A stretch of 35,432 bases of DNA. It comes from a virus. Positions 1,213 through 15,298 of the stretch are shown here, one piece after another (the stretch's first letter is position 1; every line of letters begins with the position of its first letter). The notes under the pieces were generated by a model, which saw only the letters and a list, made by a program, of their open reading frames with translations, searched no databases and had not been told where the DNA came from. The translations under genes were made by a program, and so were the position numbers. The DNA is taken from the IMG/VR virus record IMGVR_UViG_3300005613_000215, positions 1 through 35,432 of that record. One strand, written 5' to 3'.

Positions 1213-1217
1213 ATCAG

Positions 1218-1864: not shown

Positions 1865-1869
1865 TAATT

Positions 1870-2366: not shown

Positions 2367-2370
2367 TGTA

Positions 2371-2556: not shown

Positions 2557-4432
2557 TAGATATTTCTGTTTCTGCGGTTAATAATCCGTTAGTTATAATA
2601 ACATTAGCAGCTTCCTCCATCAATTCATTCATTCTATCTCTCCACTCTTCAGACAATTCCTTTTTACAGATAGTATCAATCTGGTCATGAACAGTCATAA
2701 CCATTTTGACTTTTTTGTAAAATCTAGATTCCGGATCATTTATCTCGTCATAGATTTTAACCATAGCAAGTTTAGTCATATCAGCACTTGATCCTTGAAT
2801 TGGGGTGTTCTTTGACTGACGTTCAATACTCCCACGATCTTGAGGTGCAGTCATTCCGTGAGGTAACCAGCTATCAAACCAACGCCTACGTTTGAACGGT
2901 TTAAATGTTCTGATATACCCATTCTTTACCCCAAACTTTGCAAGTTTATTTAAAAACTCCTGGATAGATGGGAATGCATTGAAATACTTATCAATTAACT
3001 CTGACGCTTCATTGACTTTAATATCAAGTTGATCAGCAAGTTTATGCGGACCCATCCCATAAGCTAACCCGAAGTTGATAGACTTAACCTGCGTCCTCAA
3101 TTGTTTGTGTTTTGGGCAGTTACATTTCTGCTTTGAAATGTTATACGCACAATCAGGTTCGCTTGAGTTTATCCATTCATCCCCAAATACAAGTTCTGCA
3201 CATACAGAATGAAGATCTTGTTTATTTTTGAGAGCATCTAAGAACACAGGATCTTTAGACCCATAAGCAATTACATTCAACTCTTGACTTGAGTAATCAG
3301 ATGAAACAAACACCCAACCGTTAGGGGCAACAAAACAGTTACGATACTTGTTATCTGCAGGTATTTGTTGCATGTTAGGTTCGCTTGAGCTCACCCTCCC
3401 AGTATCAAGTATTTGTCTGAAGTTAGTGTGTATTTTCCCATCACAACTGATTAAGCTGTAAAAGTTATCCCCGTAAGAACTTGTTAGTTTAGTGATCTCT
3501 TTGTACTCCATGTACTCTTTAATCAAGTTATGCTTACGTCTGTACTTATAAAGAGAGTTAGCATTGACATCTTCAAGTCCAGGGACCAGAAGCTTAAATA
3601 CTTTAACTACTTGTGCCGGACTTTTCCAATTAATGTTCGTCTTACGAATCTGAGTTTCAAACATGTCTTGCTGCACAGGCTCGTGATAAGGATCAAGCTT
3701 TGGGTTAGATATTACTAAGTCATCTAGCTCAAGCTCTTTTTGCTTAGCTTTTTTGAGATTATCTTTTGACAATTCATCCCAGGAATCTTTGTTAATTAAT
3801 AACCCTTCATACTCAATTTCAGAGAATGGGATTACAGCTAAATTCTCAAGCTTAACAACTTCAGCTAACTCGTACTTTTCAATTAAGGGTTGTTGCTTTT
3901 CATAAAGCTGGATTAAGAACTCAACATCCTTAGCCCCATACACAATTTGTTGTACTGAGTACGGTTGCCCAGTTAAATTAATGAACTGGTTTCTCGTTGA
4001 TTTATCTAGTTCAATACCCAGGTATCTTTTAACAAGTTTATTCAACCCAAACCCAAAATCCTTTTTCCCACAATGAATTACTCTTTCTGTGAGATAAGTG
4101 TCATAAATGTTTCTTGTTTGAATACCATGAGTTCTGATGAACTTGTAATCAAACTTAGCATTGTGAAAGATTTTTATGATGTCCTCTGACTCTAAAATTT
4201 CTTTCAAAGGTTGAATCGAAATAAATCTTGTATCAATGATATATTGCATATCACGATCCCCGATTTGAAACATAATCATTTTCTTACAAGTGAAGTCTAA
4301 CCCTTCAGTCTCAGTATCTACCCCAAGAATGTGCTTGTCTTTGCAATACTCAACAACTTCCTCAATAGTAGCTGTTTGAATTGATGGGTCAATTGTCTTC
4401 GTCGTCGATACGAAGCGGATTTTTGGATGCAT
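2540..4432 (-). CDS. Family A DNA polymerase with 3'-5' exonuclease
   Basis: The replicative polymerase of the phage, 630 residues, Pol I/T7-like. The exonuclease motifs are DTETEG (Asp39, Glu41), HNAKFD (Asn91, Asp95) and YGAKD (Tyr165, Asp169), so proofreading should work. The polymerase motifs are A, DYSSQEL (Asp379 to Leu385); B, R446-x3-K450-x3-F454-x3-Y458-G; and C, VHDQ (His582, Asp583). The residue matching E. coli Phe762 is phenylalanine (454), as in cellular Pol I. There is no N-terminal 5'-3' exonuclease. Just before motif B, Cys428, Cys437, Cys439 and His442 form a possible zinc site. The start ATG lies within the end of the preceding 75-residue gene. No helicase or primase accompanies it in this window. 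Confidence 0.97.
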   Translation of the reverse strand: MHPKIRFVSTTKTIDPSIQTATIEEVVEYCKDKHILGVDTETEGLDFTCKKMIMFQIGDRDMQYIIDTRFISIQPLKEILESEDIIKIFHNAKFDYKFIRTHGIQTRNIYDTYLTERVIHCGKKDFGFGLNKLVKRYLGIELDKSTRNQFINLTGQPYSVQQIVYGAKDVEFLIQLYEKQQPLIEKYELAEVVKLENLAVIPFSEIEYEGLLINKDSWDELSKDNLKKAKQKELELDDLVISNPKLDPYHEPVQQDMFETQIRKTNINWKSPAQVVKVFKLLVPGLEDVNANSLYKYRRKHNLIKEYMEYKEITKLTSSYGDNFYSLISCDGKIHTNFRQILDTGRVSSSEPNMQQIPADNKYRNCFVAPNGWVFVSSDYSSQELNVIAYGSKDPVFLDALKNKQDLHSVCAELVFGDEWINSSEPDCAYNISKQKCNCPKHKQLRTQVKSINFGLAYGMGPHKLADQLDIKVNEASELIDKYFNAFPSIQEFLNKLAKFGVKNGYIRTFKPFKRRRWFDSWLPHGMTAPQDRGSIERQSKNTPIQGSSADMTKLAMVKIYDEINDPESRFYKKVKMVMTVHDQIDTICKKELSEEWRDRMNELMEEAANVIITNGLLTAETEISNVWKK

Positions 4433-4616
4433 AATTAATTAAATTTTGTGCATACTTTGTACTCATGTATGCCCCGTCAAATATAAACATATCTTGGTTG
4501 TTGTCTACAGCTTCTTTACAAGCTGTATTAAGATCCTCAATACGTCTACTCTCCATTAGTTGATGGAGATATTTCATGTGTCCCATAATGTGTTGGTTAG
4601 CGCGATGATAGTGCAT
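4389..4616 (-). CDS. Small basic/helical protein before polymerase
   Basis: A 75-residue protein: MHYHRANQHIMGHMKYLH, rich in histidine and methionine, then helices through ACKEAVDN and a final polar tail. I do not recognise the family. An earlier in-frame GTG at 4646 would add ten residues, but I prefer the ATG at 4614-4616 because it follows an A/T-rich leader and places the small hairpin 4635-4648 outside the gene. Its last 44 bases overlap the polymerase start, so the two are probably translated together. The histidines could bind metal, but there is no clear motif. Confidence 0.65.
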   Translation of the reverse strand: MHYHRANQHIMGHMKYLHQLMESRRIEDLNTACKEAVDNNQDMFIFDGAYMSTKYAQNLINYASKNPLRIDDEDN

Positions 4617-4634
4617 TTTTTTAATAAACTTCTT

Positions 4635-4648
4635 AAGTGTTATCACTT
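4635..4648 (-). promoter_or_regulatory. Leader hairpin before the 75-aa gene
   Basis: AAGTG pairs with CACTT around a 4-base loop, 18 bases before the start codon at 4616. By itself the stem is short. It is listed because several left-arm genes have a hairpin at a similar distance. Confidence 0.35.
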
Positions 4649-4664
4649 AGACATTAGAGTAAAA

Positions 4665-4740
4665 AAGTACAGCAGCTTACTAACTGCTGTACTTAATAAT
4701 GATAGAGAGGAGAGCTTGTATGCTCCCCCCTCTTATCATT
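4665..4740 (-). terminator. Tandem hairpins, probable terminator
   Basis: Two adjoining inverted repeats lie between the stop at 4749 and the next gene. 4665-4675 and 4684-4694 form a perfect 11-base-pair stem (AAGTACAGCAG) with an 8-base loop. 4698-4740 forms a long imperfect stem whose ends are AATGATA and TATCATT. On the minus strand they come directly after the paralogue gene, and the second stem met is followed by a T-rich run (4661-4666 read as T). They probably end the 5.3-4.7 kb transcript and separate it from the polymerase operon. Confidence 0.7.
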
Positions 4741-4748
4741 GAGACTGC

Positions 4749-5336
4749 TTAGTCCCAGATCTCACCGGTATCGGTGTCAACAACTGCTTCAGACTCCTCG
4801 TCTGTTTGCAGGAAGGTGTGACTACGCTGCCCTTCAAGTACAATCTCCGTGTTGGAGAAGATGTGCTTGCCGTTGTGCAGCATGAACGGACCGTCTGCAC
4901 CCTTACGCTTAGCCCGCTCCTCAATGTTAGAGGCTTGGTAAGCGTCAGGTGTAGTTGTCTCAGTCACCTGAAGTACCAGACGTCCGTGAGGGATCTCTGG
5001 GTTCAGGATGTTCAGAGGACGTACCATCTTTTTAGATGAGCGTCCAAGCTGAGACTTTTTCCAACCTGCCTCTGAAGTAAGAGTCCCTTCCTTGAGACCC
5101 AGCAACTCCTCTGCGTCCGCTGCTTCAACAGTCATCCACGCACGACGTGGGCGACGTTGGAATCGGTCGTCAGATTTGTTGAACACCCCGAGGAGGTTGG
5201 TTCCTCTTGGGGTTTCTTCAACGATTTCTGCAACCTCAAGCTGAATTTTCTCAGTTGAAGTTGCTACTGCCTGCACGAGGAGGCTGTTACCTGGAGTTAA
5301 GGTCTCCAGTGTACCTGAATTCAATGCATTTTCCAT
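4749..5336 (-). CDS. Conserved phage protein, paralogue A
   Basis: A 195-residue protein clearly related to the gene at 6515-7090. Shared blocks are GNSLLV, the FNKSDDRF segment, RRAW-T, LN-LNP, and AKR-GADGPF-LH-GK-IFSNTE. I recognise this as a conserved family of marine phages without an established function. Single-stranded DNA binding would fit its position beside replication genes, but no motif proves it. I chose the ATG at 5334-5336 (MENALNSGTLETL) over an earlier one because the other copy begins at the matching point. The G+C content is higher than in the late genes. A hairpin (5359-5386) precedes it and tandem hairpins follow it, so it is probably a single-gene transcript, likely abundant. 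Confidence 0.85.
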   Translation of the reverse strand: MENALNSGTLETLTPGNSLLVQAVATSTEKIQLEVAEIVEETPRGTNLLGVFNKSDDRFQRRPRRAWMTVEAADAEELLGLKEGTLTSEAGWKKSQLGRSSKKMVRPLNILNPEIPHGRLVLQVTETTTPDAYQASNIEERAKRKGADGPFMLHNGKHIFSNTEIVLEGQRSHTFLQTDEESEAVVDTDTGEIWD

Positions 5337-5358
5337 GCTTGAAATGTAATTTAATGTT

Positions 5359-5386
5359 GAGTGCAACTTAATTCGGGCATGCACTC
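5359..5386 (-). promoter_or_regulatory. Leader hairpin before paralogue A
   Basis: GAGTGCA (5359-5365) pairs perfectly with TGCACTC (5380-5386) over a 14-base loop, 22 bases before the start codon. It may stabilise the message or affect translation. Confidence 0.5.
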
Positions 5387-5399
5387 TTACTCCCGCTGT

Positions 5400-5534
5400 T
5401 TATTTTACGTGTCGAGAAAGAACTCGAATGACTACTTGGTCATGAAGATGTTTCACTTCATTTTTACCCCAACCAGTCTTAGCTTCGAGCTCCTTCTCAA
5501 ATTCTGCTTTGATCTCAAAAATTAATTCAGTCAT
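5400..5534 (-). CDS. Microprotein, 44 aa
   Basis: A 44-residue gene: MTELIFEIKAEFEKELEAK, then TGWGKNEVKHLHDQ and a hydrophobic end. It has the charge pattern of a folded helical protein, and the TGWGKNEV segment looks conserved in kind with other small phage proteins. I assign no function. Its ATG overlaps the stop of the upstream lipoprotein gene as TGATG, so translation is probably coupled. It closes a four-gene minus-strand operon (6311 to 5400). Confidence 0.65.
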   Translation of the reverse strand: MTELIFEIKAEFEKELEAKTGWGKNEVKHLHDQVVIRVLSRHVK

Positions 5535-5674
5535 CACCAGTTATTTACACATTGAGGCTTTTCCCAACGTTTGAGTTTAATTACTTGTTTACCTCTCTGT
5601 TCGTAGATTGCAGTTGAAGTAGCACAGCTAGAGAGCAGTGCTACAACAACTACAAATAGTAGTAACTTCTTCAT
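5534..5674 (-). CDS. Small lipoprotein, 46 aa
   Basis: A 46-residue protein with a full lipoprotein signal: MKKLLLFVVVVALLSSC, with lipobox LSSC and the lipidated cysteine at 17. The mature part is only about 29 residues, polar and basic, with one more cysteine near the end. It should be anchored in the inner or outer membrane, facing the periplasm. Phage lipoproteins of this size are often o-spanins or superinfection-exclusion proteins; here it lies far from the endolysin and holin, so exclusion of other phages is a slightly better guess. Both ends overlap neighbouring genes by one base (TGATG), giving tight coupling with the 143- and 44-residue genes. Confidence 0.75.
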   Translation of the reverse strand: MKKLLLFVVVVALLSSCATSTAIYEQRGKQVIKLKRWEKPQCVNNW

Positions 5675-6105
5675 CAGTTATTCAATCTTTGGGTTTGTTG
5701 AATGAACTCATTAGCTGCATGTTTCCCCATTGCCTCTTGCATCTCCCAAGCCATTGGGAGTACCTGATCTAAGGGAATACAACGAGCCATAGTATCTTCG
5801 TCAATGATAGATGCACAAGCTTCAATACGATCGAAGTGTGCATCAATGTCACTGTCAAGTAAGAATGTAGGGAGAGTCTCGAACTTAATCGTGATGTGTC
5901 TCCCTGTACTCACATGCTTGATAGGTGAGATATAGTACTCACCCATTTGATCTTCAAACGTATCAATAAAGACATGCAGGACTTTTTCCAGAGTCCAGTC
6001 TTTATCATACGTGTTGTAAGTCATCCCAATGATCTCCTCACCACGAAAGAAACACATAGTCTCTTGAACGATGTGAGACTCGCTAATCAATACTTCGTAC
6101 TTCAT
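5674..6105 (-). CDS. Unknown protein, 143 aa
   Basis: A soluble acidic protein of 143 residues, beginning MKYEVLISESHIVQETMCFF. The first two thirds look like alternating beta strands, and the last third is a helix rich in Met and Ala (LPMAWEMQEAMGKHAANEF). No motif I recognise, no signal peptide and no membrane segment. It overlaps the upstream two-helix membrane gene by 4 bases (ATGA) and the downstream lipoprotein gene by one, so it belongs to a coupled operon with two membrane-associated products. That suggests a job at the envelope, but nothing in the sequence proves it. Confidence 0.8.
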   Translation of the reverse strand: MKYEVLISESHIVQETMCFFRGEEIIGMTYNTYDKDWTLEKVLHVFIDTFEDQMGEYYISPIKHVSTGRHITIKFETLPTFLLDSDIDAHFDRIEACASIIDEDTMARCIPLDQVLPMAWEMQEAMGKHAANEFIQQTQRLNN

Positions 6106-6311
6106 GACTTAATTCGATTTGAATAAACCATAAATAACACTGAAGATAGCATGAACACCATGAACCCAAAGAACCAAAGTCTCTCCTGAGTTGAGGTTGA
6201 GTATTCACTAAACCAATTAAGTATTGGCATTCCGATTATCAACATGAATGCTGTTAGCATAGCATATGAGAACAGGATTGCTCTCGCAATGAATCTTAAT
6301 ACTTGTTTCAT
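6102..6311 (-). CDS. Small two-helix membrane protein
   Basis: A 69-residue protein with two hydrophobic segments (about residues 8-30 and 45-63) joined by a short polar loop with SEYSTSTQERL. I start it at the ATG at 6309-6311 (MKQVLRFIARAIL), because an earlier in-frame ATG would add a leader of unlike composition and the chosen start follows an A/T-rich leader. It is first in the operon with the 143-residue protein, lipoprotein and microprotein. It could be an early membrane or exclusion protein, or a holin-like protein; the function is unknown. Confidence 0.72.
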   Translation of the reverse strand: MKQVLRFIARAILFSYAMLTAFMLIIGMPILNWFSEYSTSTQERLWFFGFMVFMLSSVLFMVYSNRIKS

Positions 6312-6514
6312 AATTAAAATGAATTTGAATGAATTTAAATGTAAAATAAGGGGCACTACCCTTGTCGTAGTGTTCTGCTCCCCGTGATCAGGACAAGGCT
6401 GCCTACCTACAACTAAAGCACTGATTACGTGAGGGGTAGGTTCTCACATATCAGTGTGCAGAATACAAAGAAAGCAAGGGAGCGCAATGCTCCCCTGCAA
6501 TCATAACTTAGGAC
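6312..6514 (-). other. Spacer with hairpins between paralogue B and the membrane operon
   Basis: A spacer of about 200 bases without a gene. CACTAC (6354-6359) pairs with GTAGTG (6367-6372), flanked by GGGG and CCCC. A CCTACC/GGTAGG pair lies further on, around 6400-6441. The terminator-like hairpin 6478-6494 is listed separately. The spacer probably holds the promoter for the membrane operon, but I found no TAnnTTTG match on the minus strand. Confidence 0.5.
6478..6494 (-). terminator. Probable terminator after paralogue B
   Basis: GGGAGC (6478-6483) and GCTCCC (6489-6494) form a 6-base-pair G+C-rich stem with a 5-base loop, about 20 bases past the stop of the 191-residue gene. On the minus strand it is followed by a T-rich run (TTGCTTTCTTTG). 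Confidence 0.6.
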
Positions 6515-7090
6515 TTAGTCATTAAGTCCCCCAAGAATAGACGAGCCTGACACTGAAGTCGTTTGCTCATCGGCTTCAAGCAACAAGTGCTTCGCCTCGT
6601 TAAAGACGACTTCGGTGTTGCTGAAGATGTACTTGCCACCGTGCAAGATGAAAGGACCGTCAGCCCCTGCACGCTTAGCAGCACGCTCGATGTTCTGTGC
6701 CTGCCATGATGAAGGCTCCGTGGTCTCGACAATGCGAACACGTAATGTGTTGCCGTTGACCTGTGGATTGAGAACATTGAGCGGAAGAATCTCACGCCCT
6801 TGATCATCGGTCATCCAAGCTGGGTTAGATGTACTGAGATCAATGCCCAACAAGTTAGAGGCATCTGTCGGTTCAGCTGTTAACCAAGCACGACGAGCAC
6901 CACCCGCAGAAAAGCGATCATCTGACTTGTTGAACATACCAAGCACGTTGGTTGCTCCGCGGTCAGCAGATTCGATTATTTCTGCAAGCTCAAGTTGAAC
7001 TTTGCCCCCGTTAACGCGTCGCGCATGAACGAGGAGAGAATTGCCTGCTGTTAAGGTCGCAAGTGAACCTGTGTTTACTGTGTTTACCAT
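6515..7090 (-). CDS. Conserved phage protein, paralogue B
   Basis: A 191-residue protein of the same family as the gene at 4749-5336. The two share GNSLLV near residue 16, a V-L-G-FNKSDDRF block, RRAW-TAE, a LN-LNP strand and the GADGPF-LH-GK-IFSNTE block near the end, by eye close to half identical. The family is widespread in marine phages, without an established role; single-stranded DNA binding is a guess from location. One 60-base stretch (6841-6900) counts about 52% G+C, against about 28% for 16021-16080 in the portal gene. A 426-base spacer with repeats and a palindrome lies upstream and a terminator-like hairpin downstream, so it is probably transcribed alone and in quantity. Confidence 0.85.
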   Translation of the reverse strand: MVNTVNTGSLATLTAGNSLLVHARRVNGGKVQLELAEIIESADRGATNVLGMFNKSDDRFSAGGARRAWLTAEPTDASNLLGIDLSTSNPAWMTDDQGREILPLNVLNPQVNGNTLRVRIVETTEPSSWQAQNIERAAKRAGADGPFILHGGKYIFSNTEVVFNEAKHLLLEADEQTTSVSGSSILGGLND

Positions 7091-7201
7091 GATGGTAAGT
7101 TTAAAATGATTAAAAAATGAAAAAAAATTGAATTATGATAAAAGCCTGAGTGGCTAAAATCCAAAGTTTAAAAATGCAAGTTTAAAAGTGTAAACTGCAA
7201 T

Positions 7202-7216
7202 ACTGTATGATACAGT
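7202..7216. promoter_or_regulatory. Operator-like palindrome
   Basis: ACTGTAT, G, ATACAGT is a perfect inverted repeat with 7-base arms around one central base. This spacing is typical of the site of a dimeric DNA-binding protein. It lies about 110 bases upstream of the 191-residue gene. Confidence 0.5.
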
Positions 7217-7346
7217 GTAAAATAGGTGTTGCAAAAATGTGGGTAAAAGTGTGGTGAGGTGTCTGGAACACATACACATACACATCAATGCAACACGCAA
7301 AAGTGCACGAGTTAGCCCGAGCCCTTAAACCTATTCTTGCATAGAG

Positions 7347-7413
7347 GTAATTAGCTTGAGTGCTGATGACAGTGCAAAGCCGTAGTTAGCTTGACTGCCA
7401 ATGATAGTGCAAA
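7347..7413. repeat. Imperfect direct repeat, period 35
   Basis: Two 32-base copies, 7347-7378 and 7382-7413, agree at 27 positions. Both contain TTAGCTTGA and end in AGTGCAAA. Iterated boxes like these in a gene-free region may be iterons or operators. Confidence 0.7.
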
Positions 7414-7516
7414 AAACAATGCACTAAAGCCCCTATGCGCACTGGTAAGATAGAGACTTTTAAACTATTTTAATCAAAAGAAAAGGCAGTTTATACACAT
7501 GCCTAGGTGTTGTCGC

Positions 7517-7723
7517 TCAATCCTCTACAATATAAATGTAGAAGAGAGCAACCAGTGTCCCGAAGAAGGACACTGCGTTGGTGGCGGCGTACCCCCAAGT
7601 AGGACCAAAGTCCGTACCAAAGAGCAGCACCGCGAGGAAGGTTACTACAATCCTCACTAAAACCGCCACCAAGGCAGCTACGAGCAAAGCCCTAGCTACC
7701 GCAATAAAATTTCTCTTAACCAT
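7517..7723 (-). CDS. Small two-helix membrane protein
   Basis: A 68-residue protein with an N-terminal basic end (MVKRNF), a long hydrophobic stretch at about residues 8-35 rich in Val, Ala and Leu, a short loop with Gly/Pro/Trp, and a second hydrophobic segment at about 45-65, ending IYIVED. Two membrane helices are likely, with both ends in the cytoplasm. No family recognised. The DNA is G+C-rich (about 58% in the 60 bases 7561-7620). The start follows a hairpin (7744-7765) by 20 bases. It could be an early protein acting on the host membrane or a holin-like protein. Confidence 0.75.
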   Translation of the reverse strand: MVKRNFIAVARALLVAALVAVLVRIVVTFLAVLLFGTDFGPTWGYAATNAVSFFGTLVALFYIYIVED

Positions 7724-7743
7724 AGCGGATGGTTTAAGAGTTA

Positions 7744-7765
7744 AGAGAACTTGCAGGTGTTCTCT
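7744..7765 (-). terminator. Hairpin between two early genes
   Basis: AGAGAAC (7744-7750) pairs perfectly with GTTCTCT (7759-7765) over an 8-base loop. It lies after the 82-residue gene and 20 bases before the start of the 68-residue gene. It has no long T run, so it may act as a leader hairpin of the second gene as well as, or instead of, a terminator. Confidence 0.5.
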
Positions 7766-7817
7766 ATAACCTAAGTTTCTGTTGCCAGGTCTTCACCCCG
7801 AGTCTGACTCAGTTGAC

Positions 7818-8066
7818 TCACTTACGACGACGACCGCCTTCACGTACAAATGGTACGTGAGGCTCTCGAGTAGGGAGAGAGTTTCTCCACTCCTCAAAGT
7901 CTGCCCAAAGGTCGTCCTTAGGGTACTCTGGCCATTCGCCATTGTTCCCTACGAACTCCTTCAGGCAGTCGCCCTTGGAGTCGAAGACCATGATAGCCCA
8001 CTCTCCGCTACCTAAACCGATAGCGCGAGTGTTACCAAGGTCTTCAAGATAAATCTGTTCACTCAT
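7818..8066 (-). CDS. Unknown early protein, 82 aa
   Basis: An 82-residue protein: MSEQIYLEDLGNTRAIGLGS, then a strand-rich middle (EWAIMVFDSKGD), an aromatic acidic segment (EYPKDDLWADFEEW) and a basic tail ending GGRRRK. The mixture of an acidic body and an arginine/lysine tail suggests binding to a nucleic acid or a host protein, but I recognise no family. Its start overlaps the end of the 62-codon frame by 4 bases (ATGA) and is preceded by a hairpin (8086-8108) 19 bases away. The 7 bases TAAATCTTTC-type motif before its ATG also stands before the gene that starts at 8507. Confidence 0.72.
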   Translation of the reverse strand: MSEQIYLEDLGNTRAIGLGSGEWAIMVFDSKGDCLKEFVGNNGEWPEYPKDDLWADFEEWRNSLPTREPHVPFVREGGRRRK

Positions 8067-8251
8067 GATGAAAGATTTACAGTGAACACGACTTGTTGGG
8101 TGTCGTGTATAACCCAGTACTTACGGTAGTACCCACCTTTGTCTGGTTGCGTGCAACGCAACACAGACTTATTATAGTGACGAATGTCACTATAAAGAAC
8201 AAAGAAGGGAGCCGAAGCCCCCTTCTGTTGTTCGATGCTCTTACTCGTCAT
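8063..8251 (-). CDS. Doubtful 62-codon frame over four hairpins
   Basis: A 62-codon frame, MTSKSIEQQKGASAPFFVLY at the start and YYRKYWVIHDTQQVVF near the end. For a gene: it starts inside the end of the 88-residue gene (11-base overlap) and its stop overlaps the next start as ATGA. Against: the same 140 bases hold four successive stem-loops (8086-8225), one of them a textbook terminator right after the 88-residue gene, which would seldom leave room for a message. It may be coding, a structured leader, or both. No family recognised. Confidence 0.4.
   Translation of the reverse strand: MTSKSIEQQKGASAPFFVLYSDIRHYNKSVLRCTQPDKGGYYRKYWVIHDTQQVVFTVNLSS
8086..8195 (-). ncRNA. Row of three stem-loops, possible structured leader
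   Basis: Three stems follow one another: ACACGAC/GTCGTGT (8086-8092 with 8102-8108, 9-base loop); GTCTG plus GTTGCG with CGCAAC plus CAGAC (8141-8151 with 8157-8168, 5-base loop, one bulged A); and TTATAGTGAC/GTCACTATAA (8172-8181 with 8186-8195, 4-base loop). With the terminator at 8204-8225 they fill the space before the 82-residue gene. Confidence 0.5.
8204..8225 (-). terminator. Rho-independent terminator
   Basis: On the minus strand, GAAGGGGGC and GCTCCCTTC form a 9-base-pair stem (one G-U) closed by the stable TTCG loop, followed by TTTGTTCTTT. It comes about 15 bases after the stop of the 88-residue gene. On the plus strand the same stem has an A-C mismatch and no T run, so it is directed to the minus strand. 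Confidence 0.85.
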
Positions 8252-8507
8252 ACGACAAGAAGAGCATCTCGGTGCCGTCTGAGAAGCACATAGGCTCCCC
8301 AGTCTCGCGGCTCTTCTGAGTCACGAGATTATAACCGACTGGGATCTCAACGAGAGATCCCACTTCTGCCCCAGCAAACGGCTGTGCTGGGGCATAAACC
8401 GTCTTATCCGTTACGCTGAACGGATTTGTTTTGACGGCCAGAACGGCAAAGCTGCCATTCTTGCTGAAGCCCTTAAGGCGGGCTAAGACCATATTCTGAT
8501 CTTTCAT
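8241..8507 (-). CDS. Unknown early protein, 88 aa
   Basis: An 88-residue protein, mostly beta strands by eye: MKDQNMVLARLKGFSKNGSF, then VKTNPFSVTDKTVY, a Pro/Gly-rich middle (PAQPFAGAEVGSLVEIP) and an acidic end. The strand order could form a small barrel such as an OB or SH3-like fold, but no known family is evident. It is the first gene of the minus-strand arm next to the divergent control region, so it is probably an early gene. A 10-pair hairpin (8522-8553) ends 14 bases before its start and a strong terminator follows its stop, so it is mainly a single-gene transcript. Its G+C content is high. Confidence 0.75.
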   Translation of the reverse strand: MKDQNMVLARLKGFSKNGSFAVLAVKTNPFSVTDKTVYAPAQPFAGAEVGSLVEIPVGYNLVTQKSRETGEPMCFSDGTEMLFLSYDE

Positions 8508-8521
8508 AGCGAAAGATTTAT

Positions 8522-8553
8522 GTGCAGACGCTGCTAATTAATAGCGACTGCAC
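8522..8553 (-). promoter_or_regulatory. Leader hairpin with an alternative partner
   Basis: GTGCAG-A-CGCT (8522-8532) pairs with AGCG-A-CTGCAC (8543-8553), ten pairs with one A-A mismatch. The TGCACG at 8549-8554 can instead pair with CGTGCA at 8581-8586. The two stems exclude each other, as in an attenuator or translational switch. The first ends 14 bases before the start of the 88-residue gene. Confidence 0.5.
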
Positions 8554-8617
8554 GAGTTAAAAATACACACAGACTCTCTGCGTGCACAAGGTAGGACAAC
8601 ACCGTAAAGGTATTCTG

Positions 8618-8734
8618 CTACTGCATGGCAGCCTGTACGGTAGCTCGCTATCACCTGAGCTACGGTAGACTCCGCAGTAGTTGGCAACGTCCTAATTGCC
8701 AAGCTTTGAACTTAATCCCGGGGGATACGTTCAA
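8618..8734. ncRNA. Candidate structured RNA of three adjoining stem units
   Basis: CTACTGC (8618-8624) pairs with GCAGTAG (8674-8680) and encloses TAGCTC/GAGCTA (8641-8646 with 8657-8662). Directly next to it, TTGGCAA (8681-8687) pairs with TTGCCAA (8696-8702). Three bases on, TTGAAC (8706-8711) pairs with GTTCAA (8729-8734) around an inner ATCC/GGAT (8715-8718 with 8723-8726). All stems are perfect. The strand is not settled; the minus strand would make it the leader of the 88-residue gene. Confidence 0.45.
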
Positions 8735-8816
8735 TTGCAACAGGTAGTGGGGGACTTTTAATATATTGGTCACCGCTCTCAAAAACTCCCAACAAAAAAT
8801 TTTTTCCCCAAAATTT

Positions 8817-8848
8817 TTGCAGTATAGATTATATTTTATATACCTTTG
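8817..8848 (+). promoter_or_regulatory. Bacteroidetes-type promoter of the right arm
   Basis: TTG (8817-8819), 21 bases, then TACCTTTG (8841-8848): an exact match to the -33/-7 pattern of the Bacteroidetes housekeeping sigma factor. The expected start of transcription is near 8853. An identical layout occurs at 11469-11500. Confidence 0.85.
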
Positions 8849-9150
8849 CACTGTAACCAACATATAGTGTTGATCACCCTCGAGGGTCGAAAGATAGTTA
8901 GAGGGTCAGAAGTCGGGTTGTAGGCTGCAGTCTTGAAATAACAGACAAACATAGCGGTTGAGATGTCCCCGATAGTTACACAAAGTGCGTTGATATAAAA
9001 CTCTAGGTGGGAAGAAGACTATAGGCTGAAAGAAATTGTCCCCACGAAGGCTAAAAACGGTAGAGAAGAAATTCAACGTTAATCAGAAATCCAAGGGGGT
9101 AATATGCTCAATTCAGAAATAAGTTTTATTTTTGCAATAAATCTCTGATT
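8849..9150 (+). other. Leader of about 300 bases before the first right-arm gene
   Basis: No gene longer than 14 codons fits here. Visible structures are the perfect palindrome ACCCTCGAGGGT (8876-8887); GTGGG/CCCAC (9007-9011 with 9041-9045); an A/T-rich 6-pair hairpin (9117-9131); and AATCAGA (9081-9087) with TCTGATT (9144-9150), which ends directly before the start codon. It also has a 14-codon frame from 9104 after GGGGG. The length suggests control of translation. Confidence 0.5.
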
Positions 9151-9393
9151 ATGAGTAACAGAACAGAAACAAACTCTTGGTACATAGGAACACAACAAGA
9201 ATGTGAAGATTATAATTCCTATGTAACTGAACAAGAGAATTACCCCGGCCCAGACACAAACATGTTCAGCGTACTTACCCCTCACCCTACTAACGGTACA
9301 TACGCAATAGTAAAACACCCAAACCATGAAGATCAGTCAAGAAACATGACTGAAGTTTTAAACTTGGATGAAACCTGGTACCCAGAAAACTAA
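9151..9393 (+). CDS. Small conserved phage protein, 80 aa
   Basis: An acidic protein of 80 residues with the order WYIGTQQECEDYN, VTEQENYPG, then YAIVKHPNHE and a final MTEVLNLDETW. I recognise this as a small phage family that often stands in the tail or lysis region (Y-I-G-T-x-E-x-C-x-x-Y-N, E-N-Y-x-G, and A-I-x-K-H-P). The function is not known; short forms occur beside tail-fibre genes, so a tail accessory or chaperone role is possible. It is the first gene after the promoter at 8817 and overlaps the next start by one base (TAATG), so it is coupled to the lectin-like protein. Confidence 0.8.
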   Translation: MSNRTETNSWYIGTQQECEDYNSYVTEQENYPGPDTNMFSVLTPHPTNGTYAIVKHPNHEDQSRNMTEVLNLDETWYPEN

Positions 9394-10286
9394 TGAAACT
9401 ATCTACAAATTTACATATAGGAGGATATGTTCCTCAATCAGAAGGAGGATTTGATATCTCTAATTACGGGACAATAGTTATTGCAGCTTCTTTTAGAAAA
9501 ATAAACTCTAACTATACCGGACCCTTAATCAGAATAAGAAGGGCCTCAGATAACGTAGAACAAAATTTCGGGAGCAGTTTAAGTCTTGGGGAATTTGTAG
9601 ACGACGTAGAAATAGCAACATTTTTAGGAGGTACAGGATCAAGTCTAGGCTTTATAACCAGAATATTTGATCAATCTACAAACGGGTTTGATTACTTACA
9701 ATCCTCTGCTTCAAGACAACCGAGATATTTTGATCCAGTCATCCCTATAGGGATCGCTACCCCAAAAGCTTTCTTTGATGGGACGGACGATTTACTGCAA
9801 GCAGATACAGGAAGTTTAAAAATAGGGAAATCCACGTCAACCCAAACAACCTTTATAGTTACTCAATCCAGCACCTATGGGTTTGAGGCACTAACTACTG
9901 CAGGAAATGACCCTACAAATAATAACGGGCTTAGGCAATACAGACTAATAAGATCTTCATCATACGCAAGAATGTCTTATTTAGGGGATGTTACAGACCC
10001 ATTAACTAATACCTCAGCACCTTCAACTATATCTGCCCCAGAAATATTTACTTTAAATGCAAACAAAACTGTTGCAACATTTAAAAGAAATAACACAAAC
10101 GATATAACAGCAACACTAACTGCGTCACAACCAAACGGGGTAAGATACTCTAACCTAATGTCGGGGTCTGCGACTACCTGGTCAAAACAAGGATTATTTC
10201 ATGAGTATATCCTATTTGACTCTGCACTATCTGCAGCAAACGAATTAGAAGTCTACTCTAACTTAGAATCAACTTATATTCCATAA
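9393..10286 (+). CDS. Lectin-like virion protein (arabinofuranosidase B-type domain)
   Basis: A 297-residue protein. Residues about 34-115 have the order F-R-x6-YTGPLIRIRRASD-N-x-E, then LGEFV, a GF-x-TRIFDQS-NG-D block and QPRYFD. This is the signature of the concanavalin-A-like domain related to the catalytic domain of alpha-L-arabinofuranosidase B, often found in phage tail proteins. The rest looks like beta strands with FHEYILFDSALS near the end, a common ending of lectin-like folds. Probably it binds, or perhaps trims, host surface polysaccharide; the catalytic residues cannot be assigned with confidence. It comes before the amidase gene, in the same transcript. Confidence 0.85.
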   Translation: MKLSTNLHIGGYVPQSEGGFDISNYGTIVIAASFRKINSNYTGPLIRIRRASDNVEQNFGSSLSLGEFVDDVEIATFLGGTGSSLGFITRIFDQSTNGFDYLQSSASRQPRYFDPVIPIGIATPKAFFDGTDDLLQADTGSLKIGKSTSTQTTFIVTQSSTYGFEALTTAGNDPTNNNGLRQYRLIRSSSYARMSYLGDVTDPLTNTSAPSTISAPEIFTLNANKTVATFKRNNTNDITATLTASQPNGVRYSNLMSGSATTWSKQGLFHEYILFDSALSAANELEVYSNLESTYIP

Positions 10287-10288
10287 AA

Positions 10289-10705
10289 ATGAGAACAATT
10301 AACGAAATTATACTACACTGCTCTGCAACCAAAGAGGGTAAACACTTTGACGCTGAAGACATTCGGGTCTGGCATGTAAACGGGAATGGGTGGTCAGACA
10401 TAGGCTATCACTTCGTAATACTGTTAGACGGAACAATAGAACATGGACGTCCGATAGAAAAAATGGGGGCTCATGTTAAAGGTAGAAATAGAAATTCTGT
10501 AGGAGTATGTTATATAGGGGGATTAGATGAAGACGGTAAACCTAAAGATACTATGACTGAAGCTCAGGAAAAATCTTTTGAAGACATAGTAAAATCAATA
10601 AGATTAATTTTTGGGAAAGACATCACAATACACGGACATAATGAGTTCTCATCTAAAGCTTGCCCAAGCTTTAAAGTACATAAAAAATTCACTCACCTTT
10701 TATAA
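10289..10705 (+). CDS. N-acetylmuramoyl-L-alanine amidase (endolysin)
   Basis: A 138-residue amidase of the T7 lysozyme type (Amidase_2 fold), which cuts the bond between N-acetylmuramic acid and L-alanine in peptidoglycan at lysis. The zinc ligands are visible: His10 in ILHCSAT, His117 in HGHNEF, and Cys125 in KACPSF. Lys123 and Tyr40, in GYHF, match the catalytic positions. There is no signal peptide and no separate cell-wall binding domain, so it needs a holin, for which the gene at 31074 is a candidate. The ATG at 10289 is 2 bases past the lectin-like gene, in the same promoter-to-terminator cassette. Confidence 0.95.
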   Translation: MRTINEIILHCSATKEGKHFDAEDIRVWHVNGNGWSDIGYHFVILLDGTIEHGRPIEKMGAHVKGRNRNSVGVCYIGGLDEDGKPKDTMTEAQEKSFEDIVKSIRLIFGKDITIHGHNEFSSKACPSFKVHKKFTHLL

Positions 10706-10720
10706 CTACATAACATCATC

Positions 10721-11389
10721 ATGAAAAACTTAGACTACTTTAGCGCTCCGATAGCAATTACATTATTCATAGGATTTGTAATCTTACTGTTCAACCTTGT
10801 AGGTTGTCAGAAAGATGAAAACTTAAACAAAGAAATAGATGTAAGTACCTACGTAGATGAACAACTAATTGAAACTCTCCCAAAATGTACAGAATATTCT
10901 CAAGCTTCTCAGTATCGCTCTTTTCCAATGTTCAACATGTGTCAATGCGCAGACGGTTTAACAGGAGAGGCAGAAGGTTTAGAAAGTAGCTACAAACTAT
11001 ACCGAAAAGCTGTAATCATCAACAACTCTCAAGCTTATCAAGAGTTCTATACTGGGGCGGAAGACTATATAAAATTTAACTCTTATGTAGGACTATCTTC
11101 CCCGGATATTTACGACTTTGATTCTGATGGAAAAGTAGGCACATCTGATCTTCTCCCAGTACTTTCTGGGTGGGGAAATCAACCAGATACAACCTATAAT
11201 CTTTGTAATGTGCAAGTAAACTTCCCAAATTCTCACGGTTGGCCAAGCTCATATCCTGGAGCCTACTTCTCTGTTGTACATACTACACAAATAGATGAAG
11301 ACGGGGACGGGACAGACATGTGCCCATTAAATACTTTCAGATTAGAATTGGTATATTTAGATTCTACACTATATTTGTGGTACCACTAA
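10721..11389 (+). CDS. Lipoprotein with dockerin-like calcium loop
   Basis: A 222-residue protein. The N-terminus has a hydrophobic segment (about 10-27) and the lipobox LVGC, with Cys29 as the lipid site. Residues 132-143 form a complete 12-residue EF-hand loop (Asp132, Asp134, Asp136, Gly137, Asp143) followed by LLPVLSGWG, as in dockerin modules; a second acidic stretch (192-199, DEDGDGTD) could also bind calcium. Cysteines at 56, 74, 76, 162 and 201 may form disulphides in the periplasm. The function is unknown. A place in the envelope is likely, next to the amidase. It may act in lysis like a spanin, or protect the infected cell from other phages. A terminator follows. Confidence 0.85.
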   Translation: MKNLDYFSAPIAITLFIGFVILLFNLVGCQKDENLNKEIDVSTYVDEQLIETLPKCTEYSQASQYRSFPMFNMCQCADGLTGEAEGLESSYKLYRKAVIINNSQAYQEFYTGAEDYIKFNSYVGLSSPDIYDFDSDGKVGTSDLLPVLSGWGNQPDTTYNLCNVQVNFPNSHGWPSSYPGAYFSVVHTTQIDEDGDGTDMCPLNTFRLELVYLDSTLYLWYH

Positions 11390-11423
11390 CTATCGTAGAT
11401 TTTTAAATCTATAGACCCTAAAG

Positions 11424-11460
11424 ATGCCCGTCAGTTGAAACGTCAACGGCGGGCATTTTA
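11424..11460 (+). terminator. Rho-independent terminator
   Basis: ATGCCCG (11424-11430) pairs with CGGGCAT (11450-11456) around an inner GTTGA/TCAAC stem, followed by TTTATTTTG. It ends the cassette 9151-11389 about 35 bases after the lipoprotein gene. Confidence 0.9.
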
Positions 11461-11468
11461 TTTTGAAT

Positions 11469-11500
11469 TTGTTTACATAATAAATTTTTATATATCTTTG
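11469..11500 (+). promoter_or_regulatory. Bacteroidetes-type promoter of the late region
   Basis: TTG (11469-11471), 21 bases, TATCTTTG (11493-11500). Spacing and boxes match the promoter at 8817-8848. Transcription should start near 11505, giving a leader of about a dozen bases before the ATG at 11517. Confidence 0.85.
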
Positions 11501-11516
11501 TAACAAATCAAACATT

Positions 11517-11792
11517 ATGAAAATTAATTTTAACCCCACAAGGGACTGGGTAGTTCTCCCACTTCAAAGAAAGAATAAAACAGAATCTGGAATAATCCTA
11601 AACGGGGAGGCTGAAAAAAGCCTTAGAAGTAACATACTTGAAGTAATAGCTACAGGTCCAGACTGCCAAATGGTTAAAGCTGGAGATACCGTCATGGTTC
11701 ACCCAGAATCTCAAGGACTAATAATTACACTTGAAGAGGGGGAATTTATCATGGTTAATGAGTTCATGCTTTTAGGAGTAATCTCAAACTAA
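11517..11792 (+). CDS. GroES-like co-chaperonin
   Basis: A 91-residue protein with the Cpn10 layout: an opening PTRDWVVLPL strand, a mobile loop RKNKTESGIILNGE with the hydrophobic tripeptide Ile26-Ile27-Leu28 that docks on GroEL, then VIATGPDC, KAGDTVMV and a final strand FMLLGVI. Phages such as T4 (Gp31) and cyanophages replace or supplement host GroES to fold their capsid protein. That is the likely job here, as it is the first gene of the late transcript that includes the capsid gene. It is slightly shorter than bacterial GroES (about 97 residues). No GroEL gene lies in the window. Confidence 0.9.
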   Translation: MKINFNPTRDWVVLPLQRKNKTESGIILNGEAEKSLRSNILEVIATGPDCQMVKAGDTVMVHPESQGLIITLEEGEFIMVNEFMLLGVISN

Positions 11793-11796
11793 ACAG

Positions 11797-12066
11797 ATGA
11801 AAGGTAGTGTAACTATAAGTCTAGACGACTACAAATCTTTAGAATCAAATAAAGAAGAAGTAGAACAGTTTAAATCTAAACTTGTTACTGCCGCTAAAGA
11901 GCTTGAAGTCTTTTTATCGTTTTTAATTTCAAGAGATAATATCTCTGAATACGTAGAAGAATTCAACAGACAATCCACAAAATCAGAAATTGTAATTACA
12001 GATGGGAGAGCAAAAATCAAATTCAAAGACTCAGATATTAAAAATACCGGCAGACACGACATCTAA
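11797..12066 (+). CDS. Small coiled-coil protein, 89 aa
   Basis: An 89-residue protein. It starts with a short strand (GSVTISLDDYKSL), passes into a helix with heptad-like spacing (EEVEQFKSKLVTAAKEL), and ends with strands EIVITDG and KIKFKD. The pattern is common in small phage proteins between early and packaging genes; no function is known. It lies 4 bases past the co-chaperonin stop. Its last 65 bases overlap the start of the winged-helix gene. Confidence 0.72.
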   Translation: MKGSVTISLDDYKSLESNKEEVEQFKSKLVTAAKELEVFLSFLISRDNISEYVEEFNRQSTKSEIVITDGRAKIKFKDSDIKNTGRHDI

Positions 12067-12352
12067 AAAACTACAAGTTTTTAATGGTATTTTAGAGCTT
12101 ACTGATAAAGAAATGGAAGTTCTTTCTCTTCTTATTGACAAAGGAGAAACTGTAGATTTATGTTCCCCCACAAACAAACGAATAGTAGCTGAAGAGCTCA
12201 ATATTTCTGATCATAACACCTTAAATAACTACGTAAAAAGGTTAAAAGATAAGAAAGTAATCATTAAAACCAAAGATGGGTATCAAATTAATGCCCTTTT
12301 AGACCAAGTAATTAACCCAAAAGTTCAAACAATAATTAAACTTATAAAGTAA
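12002..12352 (+). CDS. Winged-helix DNA-binding protein
   Basis: A 116-residue protein with a winged helix-turn-helix core at about residues 34-98: LTDKEMEVLSLLIDKG, then KRIVAEELNISDHNTLNNY as the helix-turn-helix, KRLKDKKVI, and the wing IKTKDGYQIN. It resembles MarR-like regulators in layout. It could regulate late genes, or, near the terminase genes, bind the packaging site. The only in-frame start before the core is the ATG at 12002, giving a 65-base overlap with the gene before it. It ends next to the ATG of the zinc-ribbon gene (TAATG). Confidence 0.78.
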   Translation: MGEQKSNSKTQILKIPADTTSKKLQVFNGILELTDKEMEVLSLLIDKGETVDLCSPTNKRIVAEELNISDHNTLNNYVKRLKDKKVIIKTKDGYQINALLDQVINPKVQTIIKLIK

Positions 12353-12684
12353 TGACTTCATTTTTTGAAATGGTTAAAAACTTTGCAAAAGAAACCAAAG
12401 AATTCATCAAGCAGGGTGCCCCGTCTGTAACAGAGGCACAATATAAAGAGAGGTTAGATGAATGCGATTCTTGTCCCCACTTGATTCGTAAAGAAATGAG
12501 ATGCGGACTGTGCGGGTGTATGGTGGAACATAAAGCTAAATGGCAAACCTCTAATTGTCCAGATAAAAGATGGACTAAGATAGTAGTAGGGGAAGACGGT
12601 AAAAAATTAAACCTAAAAGATGGAAGAAAAGACAATACTACAAAAGCTGTCGATGGAGTACAACCTCCCAATCAAAAAAGTTGA
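12352..12684 (+). CDS. Zinc-ribbon protein, 110 aa
   Basis: A 110-residue protein. The middle has a cysteine-rich block: C38-x2-C41, C51-x2-C54-x-C56 and C69, in the order CDSCPH, CGLCGC, NCPDKRW. Such a block is recurrent in phages of Bacteroidetes and other marine hosts and should bind one or two zinc ions; the function is unknown, with nucleic-acid binding the usual guess. The front end is a basic helix (FFEMVKNFAKETKEFI) and the tail is polar and basic. The end overlaps the HU-like gene by 65 bases in another frame, a repeat of the overlap seen at 12002-12066. Confidence 0.8.
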   Translation: MTSFFEMVKNFAKETKEFIKQGAPSVTEAQYKERLDECDSCPHLIRKEMRCGLCGCMVEHKAKWQTSNCPDKRWTKIVVGEDGKKLNLKDGRKDNTTKAVDGVQPPNQKS

Positions 12685-12850
12685 AGAAGCAGTATTTTAT
12701 CAGTTTAAACATGTCACCAATACTATGAGAGAAGGTAATTTTGAAGGAGTTCGTCTCCCATATTTAGGGAAGTTTCATGTTAACCCTAACAGAATCAAAC
12801 ACATAGAAAACAATAAAACTAAAAATGAAAGAATTAGTAACAATAAGTGA
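12620..12850 (+). CDS. HU-like small DNA-binding protein
   Basis: A 76-residue protein: MEEKTILQKLSMEYNLPIKK, then VEEAVFYQFKHV and NFEGVRLPYLGKFHVNPNR. The order of two short helices followed by a strand ending R-L-P-x-L-G-K-F is that of the HU/IHF-like family found in Bacteroidetes and their phages. It lacks the long DNA-clamping arm of HU. A role in DNA bending, perhaps in packaging, is plausible by position. The start lies in the preceding gene; a later Met12 would cut the first helix. Confidence 0.75.
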   Translation: MEEKTILQKLSMEYNLPIKKVEEAVFYQFKHVTNTMREGNFEGVRLPYLGKFHVNPNRIKHIENNKTKNERISNNK

Positions 12851-13322
12851 AAACAAGGCTATTCCTTCTGCTTATGCGTTAGCTATTCCAGAGTTTAAAG
12901 ATTTATCAGCAAAAGAACTCTCTTTTGTATATTTCTATGCAGACCACAGATCTCCTTACGCCCCATATGATGTTGAAGAAAGATATATTAAACTTCAAGA
13001 CGATTTAAAAATTAAAAAATCTGTTAAATTAGATAAAGCTATTCAAAAATACAACCAGCTTTCTGAAACATCTGCAGTAAAACTTTTAAAATCAGCCAGG
13101 CAGGCAGTTACAAAACTAGAAAAATACTTCCGAACAGTTGACTTAACTGAAATTGATGAGAATGGGAAACTGATATATAGCGCTAAAGACTTAGTAGCTA
13201 ACTTATCTAATATGGGGAAAGTAGTTAGCGGGCTAGACGAGTTAGAAGACATAGTTAAAAAGCAGCAGCAGCAAGAATCAAGCAATAGAGGCGGAGTTAT
13301 AACCAATAAATATTCTCATTGA
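12825..13322 (+). CDS. Possible terminase small subunit
   Basis: A 165-residue protein directly before the large terminase, overlapping its TTG start. It has IPEFKDLSAKELSFVYFYAD, HRSPYAPYDVEERY and a long helical middle, ending with a Gln-rich stretch. The segment F-V-Y-x-x-x-D-x-R-S-P-Y is familiar from proteins placed before the terminase of Bacteroidetes phages. The helix-rich layout and position suit the small terminase subunit, which recognises phage DNA and activates the large subunit, but I see no classical helix-turn-helix. A virion role is possible too. Confidence 0.8.
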   Translation: MKELVTISENKAIPSAYALAIPEFKDLSAKELSFVYFYADHRSPYAPYDVEERYIKLQDDLKIKKSVKLDKAIQKYNQLSETSAVKLLKSARQAVTKLEKYFRTVDLTEIDENGKLIYSAKDLVANLSNMGKVVSGLDELEDIVKKQQQQESSNRGGVITNKYSH

Positions 13323-15286
13323 AATTTAAAGACACACATAACTTCTCCCCTGCAGCTCGGTACTATCTAGAACATGGATTTTATACAGATACGCTGCCCG
13401 GCACCAAAGAATATTTTGAATTTTGGGATGAAGAACAACGAAGATGCTTGCAGGGGTACGAAGTAAACGGAGTTAAAATTTCTGGGTACCACTATTTCTA
13501 CTTAAACTACTGCCCAATAGACAGAGCAGTAGATGAAACTCAGGAAGATGGATCTATATTAGCAAAACGTGAAAGAACTTTTCCTGCATTTTACGATGGG
13601 GATTTTGACTTCTTTCATGTTATAGACAATTGTCGTAAAACAAACAAGCACTTAACTGTACTTAAGGCCCGACGTAAAGGTTATTCATACAAAGCCGGGT
13701 CTATGATGGCTCGTAATTACTTTCATGTAAAAAACTCTAAAAACTTTGTATTTGCTGAGCAAAAAGAATACTTAATCGGGGATGGGATACTATCAAAAGT
13801 ATGGGATTTTATATCTTTTGTAGATGATAATACTGCATGGACTCAACCTAGACTGATTGATAAAGAAATGCACAAGCAGGCAGGGTATAAAAAGAGAGTT
13901 AACGGAGCAGATGTAACCCTTGGTAAAAAATCTCAGATAATTGGGGTGTCTCTAAAAGACAATCCAGATAAAGTACGTGGTAAAGCGGGTGAACTTATAT
14001 TCTTTGAAGAGGCGGGTTCATTCAACGGATTATTAAAAGCTTGGGAAGTAGCAATGCCTACAATGCGTCAGGGGTCAAAAACCCTTGGGACAATGATTGC
14101 CTTCGGTACGGGCGGGGAAGAAGGTCCTGGATTTGAATCTATGGAAGAAATGTTCTACCACCCAGAAGCCTATGATTGTATGCACTTTGATAACATTTGG
14201 GATGAAGGAGCACAAGGAACTAAATGTGGTTATTTTGTCCCAATCTACCAAAACCTTGACGGGTTTATAGACGAAGATGGGAACTCTTTAATAGAATCAG
14301 CTAAATCATTTGAAGAAGAGCAAAGGGAGAAGAAAAGAAAGGCAAACGATCCAAAAGCTTTTGATCAATACATAGCAGAGCACCCATTCTCCCCACAAGA
14401 AGCTACCCTCCAAGTAACTGCAAATTTATTTGATGTTGGAACACTAAAAGAACAATACAATAGGGTAATAGTACATGAACTTTGGAAAAGGGAGGGAACT
14501 GCAGGAGATTTATATCACGACCAAAATAACAATGTTCAATTTCGCCCAAACCCTGCAAGAAAACCAATCATAAAATTCCCCCACAGAAAAGATGATGCAA
14601 TAGAAGGGGCTGTAATTGTATACGAACCCCCGTTTAGAACAAAAGATAATTTAACTCCACACAATCTATACTTCATTTGCCATGACCCCTACGCGCAGTC
14701 TGGGAGTACAGGAGATTCTCTCGGGGCTGCTTACGTAATCAAACGAACAAATAACTTATCTAAGCCCGATGACATTATTGTAGCATCATATGTAGGACGC
14801 CCAAAAACTCAGGACGAGTACAATAGAAATCTGTTTATGCTCGCTGACTATTATAACGCTAAGATAGGGTTTGAGAACGATAGGGGGGAAGTAATACCTT
14901 ACGCTAAGAGGTTTAGAAAGTTACACAAGCTGCAAGAAGAATTTGAAATGCTTGACAAAAAAGAACTTCAATCTCGTAACGTTAAACGTCAGTATGGGAT
15001 GCATATGACGCAACAACGAAAACAACAAGGCGAGTTGTACATAAGAGACTGGTTGAGCACCCAAAGAAGTAAAGACGAAGACGGGAATGTAACTTTAAAC
15101 TTACATAAGATTTATGACCCCGCACTACTACAAGAACTAATTAAATTCAATCATAAGGGAAACTTTGACCGGGCTATGGCACTCATGATCGGGATGTATC
15201 ATAGTAGAGAGTTATATAATAGAGAAGTAGTTGAAGTTCTAAATGACCGTTCTCAAGACGATTGGTTTGATAAAAATTACAAGTAA
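13319..15286 (+). CDS. Terminase large subunit
   Basis: The 655-residue packaging motor. The ATPase part has a modified Walker A (KARRKGYSYK, residues 116-125) and Walker B ELIFFEE (225-231). The nuclease part has Asp456 in CHDPYAQ, Glu519 in IGFEN and Asp617 in FDRAM, fitting the three metal-binding acids of the RNase H-like domain. The front carries SGYHYFYLNYCPI, a mark of the terminase of crAss-like and related Bacteroidetes phages. It translocates DNA into the prohead through the portal and cuts it. The start is probably TTG at 13319, overlapping the stop TGA of the gene before; no ATG is available until residue 129, past the ATPase motif. Confidence 0.95.
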   Translation: MKFKDTHNFSPAARYYLEHGFYTDTLPGTKEYFEFWDEEQRRCLQGYEVNGVKISGYHYFYLNYCPIDRAVDETQEDGSILAKRERTFPAFYDGDFDFFHVIDNCRKTNKHLTVLKARRKGYSYKAGSMMARNYFHVKNSKNFVFAEQKEYLIGDGILSKVWDFISFVDDNTAWTQPRLIDKEMHKQAGYKKRVNGADVTLGKKSQIIGVSLKDNPDKVRGKAGELIFFEEAGSFNGLLKAWEVAMPTMRQGSKTLGTMIAFGTGGEEGPGFESMEEMFYHPEAYDCMHFDNIWDEGAQGTKCGYFVPIYQNLDGFIDEDGNSLIESAKSFEEEQREKKRKANDPKAFDQYIAEHPFSPQEATLQVTANLFDVGTLKEQYNRVIVHELWKREGTAGDLYHDQNNNVQFRPNPARKPIIKFPHRKDDAIEGAVIVYEPPFRTKDNLTPHNLYFICHDPYAQSGSTGDSLGAAYVIKRTNNLSKPDDIIVASYVGRPKTQDEYNRNLFMLADYYNAKIGFENDRGEVIPYAKRFRKLHKLQEEFEMLDKKELQSRNVKRQYGMHMTQQRKQQGELYIRDWLSTQRSKDEDGNVTLNLHKIYDPALLQELIKFNHKGNFDRAMALMIGMYHSRELYNREVVEVLNDRSQDDWFDKNYK

Positions 15287-15291: not shown

Positions 15292-15298
15292 CAAGGAT

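Follow-up and report, generated by a model that had tools for sequence, protein, structure and literature searches.

A hairpin with an invariant loop and a covarying stem in the divergent control region of a crAss-like phage

What is a chain of adjoining stem-loops doing between two divergent blocks of phage genes? The window, by which we mean the whole stretch of DNA that was analysed (35,432 nucleotides), is a 35.4-kb virus contig from IMG/VR. Its large terminase has 353 relatives among the IMG/VR candidates and is about 40% identical to the terminases of Crassvirales among the annotated phages, so the contig belongs to a crAss-like phage whose lineage is absent from the annotated collection. 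The leftward genes, below 8507, comprise DNA polymerase A, small early genes and two tRNA genes. The rightward genes, above 9151, include the amidase, terminase, portal and capsid. The divergent gap of 8508-9150 holds the stem-loop chain, which we call element A. It was originally predicted to be a compact structured RNA, perhaps a leader that senses a signal or a small RNA made early. The features discussed here are collected in Table 1.

Table 1. Features in and beside the divergent region, in positions of the window
Feature	Positions	Strand	Remarks
First leftward gene, 88 aa	8241-8507	-	Product resembles proteins of L005 (84 aa) and L007 (87 aa)
Intrinsic-terminator-like hairpin	8563-8587	-	11 bp, TATTTTT; between element A and the first leftward gene
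Element A, chain of stem-loops	8618-8734	-	Putative 5' leader of the leftward early operon, with the RNA assumed to be the minus strand
Enclosing stem, 8618-8624/8674-8680	8618-8680		In L005 and L007 other letters form this stem
Core hairpin, arms 8640-8647 and 8656-8663	8640-8663		Invariant loop, covarying stem
Octaloop, CTATCACC (+) = GGTGATAG (-)	8648-8655		Identical in 9 distinct instances
Second stem-loop, TTGGCAA...TTGCCAA	8681-8702		Small hairpin of other sequence nearby in L005 and L007
Third stem-loop, TTGAAC...GTTCAA, inner ATCC/GGAT	8706-8734		GGGGGAYACGTTCAAT side kept and re-paired in L005 and L007
Element B, leftward promoter-like motif, TTTTTGAG..CCTACACnATCAnnGACCCC	8749-8785	-	About 29 distinct loci aligned
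Bacteroidota-type promoter of the rightward transcript, TTTG-N21-TACCTTTG	8816-8848	+	Consensus match
Element C, conserved structured non-coding RNA of about 245 nt	8855-9105	+	Start of the rightward (structural) operon; covariation

Pairing and folding of the stem-loop chain

Three of the predicted stems match letter for letter: CTACTGC/GCAGTAG (8618-8624 with 8674-8680), TTGGCAA/TTGCCAA (8681-8687 with 8696-8702) and TTGAAC/GTTCAA (8706-8711 with 8729-8734). The inner hairpin, placed at 8641-8662, is present and is really one pair longer than proposed, with seven perfect pairs at 8640-8646/8657-8663 (GTAGCTC/GAGCTAC), beyond which a G-T pair closes the octaloop. Minimum free energy folding recovers the four helices, together with the 4-base inner stem, on either strand. 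In the interval 8611-8740 compatible perfect stems of at least 6 bp cover 27 pairs, a number that none of 1000 dinucleotide shuffles reached (4.9±4.4, maximum 20). When compared with shuffled sequence, as had been suggested, the folding is better on both strands (z -2.19 for plus and -3.15 for minus).

The fold energy of element A by itself is only moderate, and the case is carried by comparative evidence. The adjoining leftward stretches are equally rich in hairpins or richer (hairpin scores of 30 for 8126-8255 and 26 for 8321-8450), therefore hairpin richness at element A is not special. Indeed, five leftward genes of the window have mRNA fold z-scores of -7.5, -6.9, -6.2, -4.4 and -4.3 against shuffles that preserve protein and codons, the first leftward gene being the one at -7.5. 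Most rightward genes lie between 0 and -2.7, with 9151-9393 as an exception at -4.7. Some leftward genes of relatives behave similarly (L043 -8.0, L064 -8.8, L005 -5.5 and L071 -4.8), and the excess is much smaller in the early genes of phi14:2. The synonymous codons of the leftward early genes favour strong mRNA hairpins, which makes element A the non-coding beginning of an early region with widespread structure. This raises the question of what selects hairpins within coding sequence. The over-structured leftward genes of the window lie within 4389-8507 on the minus strand, and some leftward genes of G012 are likewise over-structured.

As predicted, no coding frame accounts for the chain. 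A 67-aa minus-strand ORF (8660-8863) overlaps it and is not kept in L005, and the hairpin stems differ in length among relatives; no conserved reading frame was found. Element A matches no family in Rfam 15, in agreement with the remark that no riboswitch class could be recognised; a search of 8400-9200 gave nothing meaningful even at E-values up to 10, and the window as a whole gave two tRNAs and nothing else at the gathering threshold. The description as a compact structured element therefore holds, as element A is non-coding, outside the Rfam families and covarying in its core. A possible relationship to Y RNA and Ro found no TROVE protein in 15 related records. The suggestion that the element senses a signal is not supported. 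Nothing indicates a riboswitch, since there is no conserved junction core and the hairpin loop alone is invariant.

Two further observations concern the leftward genes. The protein of the first leftward gene, when used as a search anchor, found no relatives in IMG/VR. Elsewhere in the arm, the minus-strand genes at 4749-5384 and 6515-7090 are paralogues of unassigned function, similar to each other over most of their length, and both correspond to a single gene of L008.

The core hairpin and its occurrence

Plain DNA similarity finds no counterpart of 8618-8719. In L005, L007 and L008 the neighbouring 8720-9102 shows about 80% identity, and about 40 loci retain parts of it. A DNA similarity search of the intergenic region against annotated phages gave no match, and an exact search with the minus-strand hairpin sequence found none. 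L005 and L007 nevertheless carry a hairpin at the corresponding place, in which the loop, GCTATCACCT, is unchanged and the stem differs. Like the window, each of these two loci has a stem that encloses the hairpin, a further small hairpin and a GGGGGAYACGTTCAAT arm that is paired anew, with letters that are all different. These alignments show that 8618-8719 is conserved as structure and not as sequence, although the outer parts of element A are less firmly supported than the core, being compared in only three independent sequences.

A search for the loop together with a stem identified more instances in divergent crAss-like loci (L060, L064, L066, L068, L080, L092, L110, L111 and L120/L137). 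Nine distinct hairpins of divergent relatives share the loop CTATCACC and its flanking T without change, and the loop length is 8-10 nt across the instances. These nine hairpins, aligned without gaps, were compared with 500 shuffles. In the core stem 84.7% of cells are paired (55.2±3.9 shuffled), 24 cells carry a double change (8.2±2.2) and the covariation score is 0.806 (0.272±0.054), values that in each case were reached by 0/500 shuffles; the compensatory changes proposed as a check are thus found in the core hairpin. All four pair types (GC, CG, AU and UA) occur at the second pair from the loop, and in slid registers of the stem the covariation falls to 0.08-0.29.

A covariance model, R1, detects the window hairpin with an E-value of 7.2e-5 and recovers the known instances, with almost no further matches in 858 kb of related sequence. 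Exact matches to GTGRCTATCACCTCAC occur in 21 contigs; outside the crAss-like contigs they nearly always fall within a gene and lack the extended stem. We consider it very probable that element A contains a conserved functional hairpin. An invariant loop on a stem rewritten by matching pairs points to a control element that may be bound by a loop-reading factor.

In the genomes searched, carriers have a single copy of the hairpin, and a leftward gene always lies downstream of it. It is found either in the leader of the operon (the window, L005 and L007) or after the first leftward gene, and it sits between leftward genes in L060, L064, L092 and L137. The distance to the leftward start codon is 20-215 nt. 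No convincing match was found in the long relatives L009/G002 (86.7 kb) and G007 (78.6 kb), in G006, G017 and G021, or in Cellulophaga phage phi14:2 and two gut crAss-like phages. L009, whose terminase is 80% identical, has the flanking elements and lacks the hairpin. Relatives without the pairing, which the original prediction regarded as evidence against it, do therefore exist (L009/G002, G007 and others), whereas the carriers show compensation. As several relatives do without it, the hairpin is a lineage-variable accessory rather than a universal part.

Two partners for the loop were considered and set aside. The plus-strand loop reads AUCACCU (window 8648-8656; the minus loop is its complement), which matches part of the 3' end of 16S rRNA, the anti-Shine-Dalgarno region. 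This may be chance, and mimicry of that region by the plus loop is inseparable from it. Complements of 7-8 nt that could form a pseudoknot or kissing contact with the loop occur nearby in L060, L092, L066 and L080 only, so such pairing is not general. In L066 (about position 3602) and L080 (about position 132) the loop complement GGTGATAG, flanked by inverted repeats, lies about 90 nt from the hairpin, and this arrangement is seen in that clade only.

Strand, transcription and possible roles

Element B adjoins element A, about 15 nt upstream on the minus strand, and is conserved just before leftward genes in its roughly 29 distinct loci. The suggestion of an early-transcript leader fits this arrangement, in which element A closely follows a conserved, promoter-like leftward motif. 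Element B does not match the Bacteroidota -33/-7 consensus, which precedes element C on the opposite strand. In crAss-like phages an injected virion polymerase transcribes the early and replication genes, and the late genes are probably transcribed by the host enzyme (PMC10136315). Given this division of labour and its non-Bacteroidota sequence, element B may be a promoter of the virion RNA polymerase.

Element A itself is observed as a structure; we infer its transcription, strand and function. No Bacteroidota-type plus-strand promoter was found upstream of it, and the only promoter-like context found is leftward. Folding of the left arm is stronger in the mRNA sense than on the opposite strand (mean z of -1.98, compared with -1.44). 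On the plus strand a G-U or A-U pair closes the octaloop in 9/9 instances, and on the minus strand this pair is A-C in 8/9, which leaves room for the plus strand, or DNA, as the acting form. The G-U counts of the core stem (3 against 4) give no decision. We favour a minus-strand RNA, and do not regard this as proved.

Terminator-like sites are enriched in the left arm (18 in 1-8800, 5.3±2.2 expected), in contrast to the right arm (11 in 9100-28900, 12.2±3.2 expected). Five minus-strand hairpins in 1-8800 are strongly terminator-like (8587, 8226, 6498, 4733 and 4694), mostly after genes, and the plus strand of the right arm has one. The leader terminator was not seen in L005 or L007. The core hairpin does not look like an intrinsic terminator, as no T-run follows it in the window, L005, L007 or L137; one does in L060 and L110 only.

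Our preferred reading, put forward tentatively, is that element A acts in cis within the leftward early transcript of this marine-type crAss-like phage and that its loop is recognised in an antitermination similar to that of nut or put. If transcription starts at the conserved motif 8785-8749, the nascent minus-strand RNA would fold into element A almost at once. A phage factor, a host factor or the RNA polymerase itself would then read the loop GGUGAUAG on a stem of free sequence, most likely resulting in read-through of terminators, the first at 8587-8563, so that the mode of action would resemble that of lambda nut or HK022 put. This likeness is suggested by the invariant loop, the free stem, the position in the early transcript and the many terminator-like sites downstream, and the analogy would be one of function, not of descent. 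Against read-through, most of the strong left-arm terminators follow genes, like ordinary operon punctuation.

A rather unlikely alternative is a post-transcriptional operator, where a protein or RNA bound to the loop controls translation, processing or stability of the leftward mRNA and leaves the polymerase unaffected. Operator hairpins such as those of T4 gene 43 and R17/MS2 typically combine an invariant loop with a variable stem, and the hairpin here adjoins the leftward start codon at the distances given above. However, it is often far from that codon, and its conservation cannot be traced to one regulated gene, since the genes beside it vary from phage to phage.

Less likely again is that the hairpin acts as DNA, i.e. 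as a hairpin or cruciform that provides a replication origin, a primosome site or a folded promoter. It is present in single copy, its plus-strand closing pair is kept in all instances, and in G012 the cumulative GC skew (3-kb bins) has its minimum just before the hairpin and the divergent region. The virion enzyme of N4 uses hairpin promoters. CrAss-like phages also inject a virion RNA polymerase, in a programme that has been compared with that of N4 (PMC10136315). An origin should be universal, yet L009 and L036, at 86.7 and 78.6 kb, gave no match, and the position shifts relative to the first gene. It also counts against a DNA element that the crAss virion polymerase is not known to be related to the N4 enzyme. 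We give a somewhat lower place to the idea that the injected multisubunit virion RNA polymerase, and not the host enzyme, is loaded or modified at the hairpin. This would then be either a put-like RNA or a folded promoter, placed at the head of an early transcript whose genes are under selection for strong mRNA structure.

We think it improbable that the region is a stand-alone small RNA, as in the second half of the original prediction. A minus-strand transcript from about 8748 to 8560, ended by the terminator at 8587-8563, would have a promoter-like motif, structured body and terminator-like end in the right order. However, no such terminator was seen in L005 or L007, other phages (L060, L064 and L092) carry the hairpin between leftward genes, and the conserved part is a 24-bp hairpin only, not a whole RNA body. 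The least probable reading, that the hairpin has no specific function and is the by-product of a hairpin-filling process or pressure in the leftward arm, agrees with a neighbouring coding sequence that is also full of hairpins, but generic hairpin formation fails to explain an invariant loop and covarying stems in distant phages; the flanking stems of element A, taken alone, could be such a by-product.

Across the gap, element C has 22 predicted pairs, 14 of them with compensatory change and few broken, based on 27 dereplicated crAss-like sequences. It starts just after the Bacteroidota promoter and ends with AAGGGGG ahead of the following start codon, an arrangement compatible with a leader as well as with a separate RNA. 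It has no match in Rfam, is absent from phi14:2 and the two gut crAss-like phages, and its pattern was not found in genome contigs that might have given a clue to the host. Element C would be a new RNA family common to many crAss-like phages. Between elements B and C most relatives, e.g. L036, L067 and L013, carry a gene for a small basic protein (M..SRPGVHAKTK...YKKAYRGQGR), which is missing in the window, L005, L007 and L009.

In the crAss-like phage papers searched, we came upon no account of cis-acting RNA or promoter elements. The invariant loop on covarying stems offers a concrete, mutable target for work on crAss-like early transcription control.

Comparison with known systems

The promoters of the N4 virion RNA polymerase are similar in that a hairpin precedes early genes and the phage brings its own RNA polymerase into the cell by injection. 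Their hairpins have a 3-nt loop and occur in several copies, unlike the single hairpin here, with its 8-nt loop and a polymerase not known to be related. The operators of T4 gene 43 and the R17/MS2 coat gene share with the core hairpin a short stem and the loop-specific recognition proposed for it, and the T4 gene 43 operator also has an 8-nt loop. The loop sequences differ, however, and the genes beside the element A hairpin are not conserved.

HK022 put is, like the proposed leader RNA, a multi-stem-loop RNA near the start of an early transcript, in the leader or further downstream and before terminators; putL follows PL directly, and putR lies about 270 nt beyond PR (PMC9378689). Antitermination by put needs no dedicated factor and works through the zinc-binding domain of RNA polymerase. 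In put a two-stem sequence of about 70 nt is conserved, whereas element A has one conserved hairpin loop; the phage order and host are different, and the polymerase possibly so. Several adjoining stems are found in the window, L005 and L007, and mainly one hairpin in the other phages. Lambda nut differs in the boxB pentaloop, which is recognised by an N-type arginine-rich protein, compared with an octaloop (8-10 nt) in a single-copy hairpin here, and no shared linear motif resembling boxA was seen by eye beside the hairpins. The nut hairpin, whose loop is conserved and whose stem is free in sequence, lies in the leader (nutL) or after the first gene (nutR), and the alignment shows the same combination of conserved loop and free stem in the core hairpin, in what would be the early transcript.
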